Below are positions 38,776-41,609 of a stretch of DNA of 50,692 bases, one piece after another (positions within the stretch are counted from its first letter, which is position 1; the number at the start of each line of letters is the position of its first letter). Location: the NCBI GenBank assembly GCA_022825725.1, contig JAJDWE010000012.1:1-50692 (forward strand), written 5' to 3'. The notes under the pieces were generated by a model that saw only the letters and a list, made by a program, of their open reading frames with translations, was not told the origin of the DNA and searched no databases. Position numbers and translations under genes: made by a program. This DNA is from Gemmatimonadota bacterium. Its GTDB lineage: Bacteria > Gemmatimonadota > Gemmatimonadetes > Palauibacterales > Palauibacteraceae.

Positions 38776-39381
38776 TCAGCGCTTCGAGACCCAGCGGCTC
38801 CGTCGATCGTAGAACCTGAGGGGTTGGTCCGCCGCGCGCGAGATCCCGATCCGCGTCGTGACCCGCACGGCGGCCTCCGGGACGGATTCTCCCCAATGCA
38901 GGGAGAGCGGAGGATGGTCGAGCCGATGCCCCTGCATTTCGGGGCCTACTCCGAGCGCCTGGGTGAGCCGGGCCGGGCCGTTGGTGAGTTCGGCGCGACC
39001 GCGGCGGCGACGCATGACGTCGAGACCCTCGGTCGGCTCCACGGCTCGCAGGAGGACGCCGGCCGGGAAGTCTTCCGGGCCCGTGACCACGTTCAGGAGC
39101 CAGTGGATGCCGTAGTTCCGGTGGATGTATGCGGTGCCCGGAGGTCCGAACAGCGGGGCGTTGCGCGCGGTGCGGCCGATCCGCTCGGCCGCGTGGCAGG
39201 CGTCGTCCTCGGGTCCGGTGTAGGCTTCCGTCTCGACGATCCGGCCGACCGTCCGCTCGCCGGCGCAGTCGGAGCGCACCGTGCAGCCGAGCAGCGCCCG
39301 GGCCACTTCGACGGCGGGGCGAACGAGAAAGTCGGCGTCGATCGGTCCGGACCCGAGGCCCGAGCCGGCCGCGTCGTTCAG
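38776..39381 (-). CDS. mpg: 3-methyladenine (alkyladenine) DNA glycosylase, AAG/MPG family
   Basis: The 201-residue DNA repair enzyme excises alkylated and deaminated purines. Family text includes VGRIVETEAYTGPEDDACHA (catalytic Glu), GTAYIHRNYGIHWLLNVV, GVLLRAVEPTEG, LTNGPARLTQALGV and the closing RIGISRAADQPLRFY. The conserved N-terminal segment DADFLVRPAVEVARALLG starts upstream of the first GTG, and the frame holds no ATG, GTG or TTG there before a stop. The start is therefore set at CTG (39379-39381), which overlaps the upstream stop as CTGA. Its gene follows the NYN-LOTUS gene directly. Confidence 0.88.
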   Translation of the reverse strand: MNDAAGSGLGSGPIDADFLVRPAVEVARALLGCTVRSDCAGERTVGRIVETEAYTGPEDDACHAAERIGRTARNAPLFGPPGTAYIHRNYGIHWLLNVVTGPEDFPAGVLLRAVEPTEGLDVMRRRRGRAELTNGPARLTQALGVGPEMQGHRLDHPPLSLHWGESVPEAAVRVTTRIGISRAADQPLRFYDRRSRWVSKR

Positions 39382-41609
39382 CTCTCCAGCTCTGCGCGCC
39401 GGGCTTCACGAACCACTTTCGCCCGGCCTTCCGAGAGCACTTCCGTCAAGCGCGTCGGCTCGGAGTCGATGACGTCGAACACGCGGTCGCCGAAATGGTC
39501 GAAGAGCACTTCCGCGGTCCGCTTTCCGACGCCCGCATAGTTGCGGACCATGTGCCCGATGGGCCCTCCGGCCGGCTTCGCGGCCGGCTTCGCGGTTCCG
39601 CCAGCCGGCTTGCCGCCCCCTCCGGTCTTGCGGGCCGCGGGCCTGTCGCGAGTCGGAGCGTCCTCGCGCTTCGCGTCTTTCCTTGCCTCTCCCCCGGCCG
39701 GTTCCTCATCGGCGACCGGGCCGATGCGAGGCGCCCCCGCCTTCTTCGCCGCGCTCGGCGCGGCCGTCCGCCCGCGGGACCCCGACCGGTAACGTCCCAG
39801 CGTTCGCCGGGAAGGCGTCTTCTCCCGGGCGCTCGGCTGGCTGTCCCGTGTCTCCGGCTCGCGCTGCGGCGCGGACGCGGCGGGCTCCTTCTTCGGCGTC
39901 GCCTCTTCGCGATTCGGCCCCGCAGCCCGCTCCCGCTGTTCGCGCGCCTTCGGCTGGCCGCGGCGCTCGGCGGAGCGGCCACCTCGCCGATCCGGCCGAC
40001 CCTTATCCGCCGGGCCTTGATCCGCCCGACCTTTCGCGGCTGTCTTCGCGCCCCGCGCGCCGGACGGGTCTCTACCGCCTCGTTCGGGTCGATCCGGCTC
40101 CGCCTTCCGCTGCTGAGCCGGCTTTTTCCGCTGACCCGGCGCGTCCGCACCGGCCGCCCGGGACGATGGCGCACTCCGGGGCGCCGGCTCTTGCCGGGGT
40201 GCGGGCTTGCTACGGGGTGCCGGTTTGCTTCGGGGCGCTGCCTCGCTGCGGGACGCCGGCTTGCCCGGGGACGCCGCCTCGTCGCGAGGTGCCGGCCCGC
40301 GCCGGAAGCGGTCGAGCGTCTTGCGCGCGGCCCGCGCCGCAGCGGACAGGGGGGACCGCCCACCCGCCTCGTCCGAACTCCCGTCCGGCGTCGACGCCGC
40401 CTTGCGCGCGGGCGCGGCCGGGGCGGCCGCCACGGTCAGATAGTGATTGCCGTCCTCGTGCCGGGACATCCGGACGACGCCCGCGTCGTGCGCCGCGCGC
40501 AGGAACAGGCTGAACTTGCTGAAGCCGAAGACGCCTTCATCGAAGGCGGCGTCGTACTGCAGGAGCTTGCGCTTGGCCATGGAGTCGCGGACCGGGGCTC
40601 CGTCCCGGGAGAGTTCGGCCACCGCGCGCTTCAGTGCCTCGTAGGCGCCTTCGACGGCGGCTGCGGAGGGATCTGTCGTCTTTGCCGACGGTTTCCCGGC
40701 CTTCGCGGGTGCGCGGTCCTCCGGGGTTTTCGGAGCGGCCGCGCGGCCGCGGCCTCCGCGACGGCCGCGCCGACCGCGGCTCCTCGCCGTCGCGGCCTCC
40801 CCCCTGGAGGAAACCGGGTCGCCGCTCGCCGCTGACGCCGAAGCGCCGGACGGCAGGCCGACATCGTACTGGCCGTTTTCCCGCTTCTGCAGCACGATTC
40901 GATTGCGCTTGGCCGCTTCGCTCAGAAATCGGTTGAATCGGGAGAAACCGGCCGTCTTCTCGTCGAAGCCCGGGTCCATCTCCAGCATCACCTGCTTCAG
41001 GCGATCCGACCGCATGACATCGCCGCGCTCGGCCATGCGCGCGACGGCCCTGCTCGTCAACTCCCACGGGTCGTGCTTCTCGGTCTGGATTTCGTCGGCC
41101 GACTTGAGCCCGGACAGTCGGTTGTAGCTGTAGTACTCGTCGCAGTTCTGGACGAGGATGTCCGAAGTGGACTCCTGGAGCCCCACGCCGATCACGTACT
41201 TCCCGTACTCCTTCAGCTTCAGCACGAGGCTCGAAAAGTCGGAGTCCCCGGAGAGGAGGATGAAGGTCCCGATCTCGGGGCGCGTGAACACCAGTTCGAG
41301 CGCATCGATCGCGAGCCGGATGTCGGTCGCGTTCTTCTTTGACGACCCGTAGGCGGGCGCGAAGATGAGGTCGACGGAGGACTCGGAGAGCGGCACGATG
41401 TACTGGGGGTAGCGTCGCCAGTCCGCGTACGCTCGCTGGACGGCCACCTTGCCGCGAATGATGTCCGAATCGAGGAAGTTCCGGAGTTCCTGTCCCAGGT
41501 TGGACCGGATCCCCATGGTCACGTTGTCGAAGTCGATGAGAAGCGCCGCGGCGTCTGCCATATCGGCGGAGGGGCGCCGGTGAGGCGCCCGCGTATACAT
41601 GTCGTTCAT
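39378..41609 (-). CDS. NYN-LOTUS-LOTUS-HhH RNA-binding nuclease-like protein
   Basis: The product has 743 residues. The N-terminal NYN domain (about 20-165) carries Asp26 and Asp28 in LLIDFDNV, Asp96, and Asp122/Asp124 in LLSGDSDFSSLV. A first OST-HTH/LOTUS domain spans about 180-252 (DPWELTSRAVARMAERGD, FSRFNRFLSEAAKRNRIV) and a second about 320-394 (FSKFSLFLRAAHDAGVV). Between them is an Arg/Gly-rich box (RSRGRRGRRGGRGR). Residues 400-675 are basic and disordered, rich in Lys, Arg, Ala and Pro. The C-terminus holds a helix-hairpin-helix (GVGKRTAEVLFDHFGD). The NYN plus LOTUS pairing recalls eukaryotic MARF1/limkain, which cleaves RNA; here it is probably RNA-directed too. Start ATG at 41607-41609 with GAGG. 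Confidence 0.92.
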   Translation of the reverse strand: MNDMYTRAPHRRPSADMADAAALLIDFDNVTMGIRSNLGQELRNFLDSDIIRGKVAVQRAYADWRRYPQYIVPLSESSVDLIFAPAYGSSKKNATDIRLAIDALELVFTRPEIGTFILLSGDSDFSSLVLKLKEYGKYVIGVGLQESTSDILVQNCDEYYSYNRLSGLKSADEIQTEKHDPWELTSRAVARMAERGDVMRSDRLKQVMLEMDPGFDEKTAGFSRFNRFLSEAAKRNRIVLQKRENGQYDVGLPSGASASAASGDPVSSRGEAATARSRGRRGRRGGRGRAAAPKTPEDRAPAKAGKPSAKTTDPSAAAVEGAYEALKRAVAELSRDGAPVRDSMAKRKLLQYDAAFDEGVFGFSKFSLFLRAAHDAGVVRMSRHEDGNHYLTVAAAPAAPARKAASTPDGSSDEAGGRSPLSAAARAARKTLDRFRRGPAPRDEAASPGKPASRSEAAPRSKPAPRSKPAPRQEPAPRSAPSSRAAGADAPGQRKKPAQQRKAEPDRPERGGRDPSGARGAKTAAKGRADQGPADKGRPDRRGGRSAERRGQPKAREQRERAAGPNREEATPKKEPAASAPQREPETRDSQPSAREKTPSRRTLGRYRSGSRGRTAAPSAAKKAGAPRIGPVADEEPAGGEARKDAKREDAPTRDRPAARKTGGGGKPAGGTAKPAAKPAGGPIGHMVRNYAGVGKRTAEVLFDHFGDRVFDVIDSEPTRLTEVLSEGRAKVVREARRAELES

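Follow-up and report, generated by a model that had tools for sequence, protein, structure and literature searches.

A core NYN-LOTUS gene of Gemmatimonadota with a methylpurine-DNA glycosylase neighbor and, in one branch, a helix-hairpin-helix tail

We analyzed a stretch of 50,692 nucleotides (the window) from contig JAJDWE010000012.1 of a Gemmatimonadota bacterium (family Palauibacteraceae; assembly GCA_022825725.1). On its minus strand, an open reading frame at positions 39378..41609 encodes a protein of 743 amino acids that runs from an NYN nuclease domain through a LOTUS domain, an RGG box, a second LOTUS domain, and a disordered linker to a C-terminal helix-hairpin-helix (HhH) domain. 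This is a real and highly conserved gene of the Gemmatimonadota: it is present in 248 of the phylum's 261 good genomes and is a core gene in its class. We think that the protein is probably a class-wide housekeeping endoribonuclease that depends on a metal ion, that its LOTUS and RGG parts hold RNA, and that an anchor for duplex DNA was added in one branch.

A chance open reading frame can be ruled out, as the frame stays open and is conserved in relatives. The ATG start is supported by the conserved N-termini of the relatives (MNDMYTRAPH or MNEQYTRAPH). An earlier note on this DNA, made from the sequence alone, had proposed an NYN domain, two LOTUS (OST-HTH) domains, an Arg/Gly-rich box, a basic linker, and a C-terminal HhH domain. 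Pfam, AlphaFold2, Foldseek, and profile searches bear out this list: the predicted structure has LOTUS folds and an HhH in the regions where the note had placed them (residues 180-252 and 320-394, and residues 681-743). Scans of the region found no structured RNA (Rfam) and no promoter or terminator exceeding chance.

The NYN (PIN-like) domain spans residues 21-161 (41127..41549, minus strand) and matches PF01936 with E=1.2e-25 and 91.1 bits, where the Pfam cut-off is 24.2. When we compared a profile of NYN and the first LOTUS domain (LOTUS1) to PDB, the sole significant match was VPA0982 (2qip; E=5.8e-12), and Foldseek also gave a weak match between the NYN part of the predicted structure and 2qip. 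Four acidic residues (D26, D96, D122, and D124) are invariant in 32 sequences and are found in the distant copies from Burkholderiales as well. NYN is the slowest-evolving part of the protein and in most cases exceeds RecA in conservation: across most other families of the class, it is 82-91% identical to the window's copy, with a minimum of 75% (in genome G049), and RecA from the same genomes is 70-79% identical at order and class distance. The invariant aspartates and the extreme conservation of this domain argue for catalysis. The NYN domain of MARF1 is a metal-dependent (Mn/Mg) endoribonuclease (PMC6294520), and bacterial NYN-OST-HTH proteins are predicted to be RNases (PMC2848206). By analogy with these families, the window's protein would bind RNA and cleave it with the help of a metal: NYN would cut single-stranded RNA via a metal ion bound by the aspartates.

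Behind NYN come LOTUS1 (residues 180-252; 40854..41072, minus strand) and LOTUS2 (residues 318-396; 40422..40658, minus strand). OST-HTH (PF12872) scores 29.5 bits against a cut-off of 23.8 and matches two stretches, of which the best is at residues 194-248; the second stretch corresponds to LOTUS2, which is similar to LOTUS1. In a full-length AlphaFold2 model built with 32 sequences, both regions (181-251 and 314-393) have the H-H-H-E-E order of a winged helix, with a predicted local distance difference test score (pLDDT) of 84-93 (about 90 for LOTUS1). Foldseek matched these folds to TDRD7 (3rco; TM-score by target 0.79), TDRD5 (3s93), NE0665 (2kpm), and CV_0373 (2kzv), with E-values of 0.05-0.25 and probabilities of 0.97-1.00. 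The AlphaFold2 model does not include the C-terminal extension helix of Vasa-binding LOTUS domains (eLOTUS), as disorder starts after the last strand of both LOTUS1 and LOTUS2; bacterial LOTUS domains have been described as mLOTUS-like (PMC6168497). Both domains change faster than NYN: outside close relatives, identity is about 47-66% for LOTUS1 and about 38-54% for LOTUS2, and LOTUS2 is divergent or missing in members of the family that lack the HhH domain (HhH- members). Binding of G-rich and quadruplex RNA has been reported for the LOTUS domains of MARF1, according to a citation in PMC10226599. The two winged helices of the window's protein, together with its RGG-rich disordered linker, would select RNA, probably of a G-rich or structured kind, and hold it.

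The RGG/RGR box lies at about residues 275-292 (SRGRRGRRGGRGR; 40734..40787, minus strand), between the LOTUS domains. The long linker, which is basic and rich in Ala, Pro, Arg, and Gly, takes up residues 397-680 (39570..40421, minus strand) and has pLDDT below 50 nearly throughout; in the protein as a whole, 400 of the 743 residues are below 50, mainly in linkers. RG[GR] motifs are enriched across the family, with a mean of 5.9 per protein versus 1.2 in shuffles that keep the composition; the excess has p<0.05 for 62 of the 85 members. The linker also contains a short motif, GRYRSGSRGR (residues 605-614; 39768..39797, minus strand), of the type R[FY]RxGSRG, which recurs in the linkers of relatives and whose residues G610 and R612 are nearly invariant. 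A single regular expression found RFRRGSRG-type motifs in the linkers of 24 members, on both sides of the split between members with and without the HhH domain. The R[FY]RxGSRG motif is class-wide, is often followed by IGVV or PPxLxGQ, and is a candidate partner-binding motif. The LOTUS domains and the RGG-rich linker may also collect RNA in assemblies.

The HhH domain occupies residues 681-743 (39381..39569, minus strand), which are helical with pLDDT of 88-94 in the full-length model and 92 when the domain is modeled by itself. The RecD2 model matches residues 691-735 (E=0.0005), and HHH_5 is matched by 34 of 40 relatives' HhH domains at E<=0.1 (best 4.4e-7); the window's copy alone is below the Pfam cut-off. 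A profile of the domain, compared to PDB, hit XPF, topoisomerase V, 3-methyladenine DNA glycosylase (2jhj), and RuvA. For the stand-alone model, all of the Foldseek matches were weak (E of at least 0.9), with NusA at the top. The leading matches (NusA, FAAP24, XPF, Hel308, UvrC, and RuvA) are mostly HhH proteins. The first hairpin (YAGVGKRTAEVL, with GVGKRTA) is of the canonical nucleic-acid-binding type: domain positions G20 and T23 are invariant, and the GxGxxTA core has been kept over deep divergence. A check for a tandem (HhH)2 arrangement found that four helices are predicted and that the second hairpin is degenerate, without the GxG core. Outside close relatives, the HhH domain is about 29-65% identical. 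Judging from its homologs, it would bind duplex DNA.

The HhH profile had one match per genome, always in the NYN-LOTUS protein, apart from fragments split over contigs. In the tree, members with the domain (HhH+) and HhH- members fall on two sides of a single branch (100/99 support), with the domain confined to the Palauibacter/Longimicrobiales side; that is, the tree has a single HhH change. One gain is favored because the distant Burkholderiales outgroup lacks the domain, but the branch to the outgroup is very long, so this direction is tentative.

Directly downstream is a gene for methylpurine-DNA glycosylase (MPG, or AAG) at 38776..39330 (minus strand; PF02245, E=4.8e-57); the family match extends to 39330 and the start codon is provisional. 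MPG is single copy in this genome. The order on the minus strand is folK (HPPK), aroB, an AMP-binding enzyme, the NYN-LOTUS gene, MPG, a Na+/H+ antiporter, a pyridoxal phosphate-dependent decarboxylase, and a DEAD-box helicase. The earlier note had the NYN-LOTUS gene heading a run with a DNA glycosylase and ending near an RNA helicase. It is not the first gene of this run, because folK, aroB, and the AMP-binding gene are upstream on the same strand. The pairing with the glycosylase holds class-wide: of 81 distinct loci with sufficient flanking sequence, 71 have MPG downstream on the same strand (37 of 41 HhH+ loci and 34 of 40 HhH- loci). The NYN-LOTUS gene and the MPG domain are 0-240 bases apart in 69 of these, and the two genes adjoin in 45 of the 46 nearest genomes that have both. 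The other neighbors were kept in 37 of 87 loci (aroB), 48 of 94 (AMP-binding), 23 of 77 (antiporter), and 4 of 22 (helicase). All four of the loci with the helicase are on the HhH+ side and none on the HhH- side; the DEAD-box helicase is thus not a conserved neighbor, and we rejected a partnership with it.

Several of our results do not sit easily with an RNase that gained a DNA anchor. In the full-length AlphaFold2 model, NYN has low pLDDT (about 43-65), so the assignment of this domain rests on its sequence. The HhH matches are weak by E-value, and HhH folds sometimes bind protein, as the top Foldseek match (NusA) illustrates. The HhH domain is absent from about half of the sampled members, which keep the rest, including the MPG neighbor, so its role is not essential to the core job; the domain is accessory rather than central. 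Finally, a neighbor such as MPG, kept for so long, hints at DNA rather than RNA. We considered whether the protein might be a DNA repair nuclease that works with MPG, combining a PIN-like domain and an HhH along the lines of FEN or XPF, and cleaving DNA, or else RNA that lies within DNA, at alkylation damage. This would fit with the linkage to MPG on both sides of the class and in nearly all of the nearest genomes, with the relatedness of the HhH domain to XPF, RuvA, and 3-methyladenine DNA glycosylase, and with the weak match of 10 of 40 HhH copies to the 5'-3' exonuclease SAM fold; also, NYN and the 5'-3' nucleases share a fold superfamily (PMC2848206). However, MPG stays beside the gene (34 of 40 loci) in the half of the sampled members that lacks the HhH domain, MPG was lost from four genomes that have the NYN-LOTUS gene (G013, G014, G018, and G048) and was kept in two families that do not (f4 and f9), and the LOTUS and RGG parts are suggestive of RNA. 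We consider a repair nuclease unlikely. It is more doubtful still that the protein is a DNA-anchored RNase that clears away nascent or R-loop RNA in the vicinity of alkylation damage on which MPG acts, which would couple RNA turnover to base-excision repair.

It is quite possible, if at somewhat less than even odds, that neither the linkage to MPG nor the HhH domain matters for the protein's function: the operon order may merely have been retained, and the domain may be a neutral or protein-binding addition. Other neighbors, such as aroB and the AMP-binding gene, are partly kept too, and the NYN-LOTUS gene and MPG each occur without the other. But on the HhH- side, MPG is kept where aroB (3 of 48 loci) and the antiporter (0 of 38) are not, and the core of the HhH hairpin has persisted over deep divergence. 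Another view of the protein is that cleavage is minor and that its main role is to scaffold or regulate, with the linker and the LOTUS domains bringing together RNA and partner proteins (for example RNase Y, RNase E/G, or RNA polymerase). The long RGG-rich linker with its recurring motif, the first match of the HhH model (NusA), and the lack of both the NYN-LOTUS gene and RNase Y in families f4 and f9 are all consistent with a scaffold. On the other hand, the slow evolution of NYN and its invariant aspartates point to catalysis, and family f11 has RNase Y without the NYN-LOTUS gene; a mainly scaffolding role seems fairly unlikely. If the protein is a housekeeping endoribonuclease, as we favor, then in the Palauibacter/Longimicrobiales branch a duplex-DNA-type HhH beyond a flexible tether might let it dock on DNA, for instance near nascent transcripts. 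The earlier note's idea of a two-ended nucleic-acid bridge survives in part: the HhH domain is real, but it is an accessory on one side of one branch, and its binding to DNA is a prediction.

The genome encodes both RNase E/G and RNase Y, which rules out that the NYN-LOTUS protein replaces missing canonical RNases; no RNase J in the genome passes the cut-off. Codependence with RNase Y is only a lead, because f11 has RNase Y alone. Six genomes of families f4 and f9 (G044, G047, G050, G053, G056, and G059) lack the NYN-LOTUS gene and RNase Y; MPG is kept in 5 of the 6, and RNase E/G in most.

In families f4, f9, and f11, none of the genomes sampled has the gene. A scan of named genomes, in which phyla other than the Gemmatimonadota were sampled only through plasmids, gave 80 loci, all at least 66% identical to the window's copy; the copy in Palauibacter denitrificans (L061) is 98% identical over NYN and LOTUS1. 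Two records titled Gammaproteobacteria (SB0662_bin_11 and RHO1_bin_70; L084 and L091) have a Gemmatimonadota-type copy with 71% identity, and these titles look wrong. In the single-contig genome G026 (contig 1), the gene is split inside LOTUS1, and the NYN half and the LOTUS-HhH half are at distant sites (L038 and L039, about 640 kilobases apart), due to either an inversion or a misassembly. No copies were found in the viral contigs and phages that we searched; together with the lack of a PADLOC match and the core rather than patchy spread of the gene, this led us to reject an anti-phage defense system.

The combination of NYN with one or two LOTUS domains is already known, because this stereotypic bacterial architecture was published in 2010 (Anantharaman, Zhang, and Aravind; PMC2848206). 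The window's protein has the features of that LK-nuclease (DUF88/NYN) and OST-HTH family, namely an N-terminal NYN, one or two OST-HTH domains behind it, and conserved acidic active-site residues; it differs by its long RGG-rich disordered linker, the HhH domain, and the conserved MPG neighbor. The 2010 analysis did not find a conserved neighborhood that ties the family to known RNA-processing systems (PMC2848206). The NYN-LOTUS proteins of Burkholderiales plasmids (P0002 and P0003; 36-39% identity) resemble it in having an NYN domain, a LOTUS region, and a tail that is basic and disordered, but they have one LOTUS domain, no HhH domain, and no MPG neighbor. On a Rhizobium plasmid (L059:3971-5039), the gene after a NYN-LOTUS gene encodes a cold-shock protein, an RNA-related neighbor in another phylum.

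Among eukaryotic proteins, DNE1 of Arabidopsis likewise has an N-terminal NYN and then two LOTUS domains; this likeness is one of architecture, and DNE1 has a eukaryotic decapping partner and no described HhH (PMC10226599). Animal MARF1 (limkain b1) also combines an NYN endoribonuclease with LOTUS domains, but it has two RNA recognition motifs (RRMs), eight LOTUS domains, and contacts with decapping or deadenylation factors, which are eukaryotic (PMC6294520). Pfam scans found no RRM in the window's protein (P0001) or in 32 relatives, and the profile of NYN and LOTUS1 did not match any MARF1 chain in PDB up to E=5. The lack of an RRM and an architecture nearer to plant DNE1 and to the bacterial DUF88-OST-HTH family mean that orthology to MARF1 is not shown. 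"MARF1-like," as the earlier note put it, is apt for the architecture only; its domain anatomy and its suggestion that the protein would work like the LOTUS-NYN RNases hold up, with RNA cleavage as a prediction from these families. The HhH domain shares its fold and GxGxxTA hairpin with XPF, RuvA, RecD2, and topoisomerase V; in the window, this domain ends an RNase-type protein, following a disordered tether of about 280 residues, and its second hairpin is degenerate. In the papers that we consulted, we found no description of the HhH tail, of the class-wide linkage to MPG, or of conservation of NYN that is similar to or stronger than RecA's. The tail and the lasting pairing with MPG look new, within the material searched, in which other phyla are sparsely sampled.

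The role of bacterial LOTUS domains has been posed as a question in print, because bacteria lack the poly-A tails and the CCR4-NOT partners that are known from animals (PMC6168497), and this family is well placed to address it. The gene occurs in almost all genomes of the class, its nuclease domain is held more tightly than RecA, it has a lasting gene neighbor, and its branches with and without the HhH domain amount to a natural experiment. If the protein is a main RNase, it would join RNase E/G and RNase Y, in a class with no RNase J above the cut-off.
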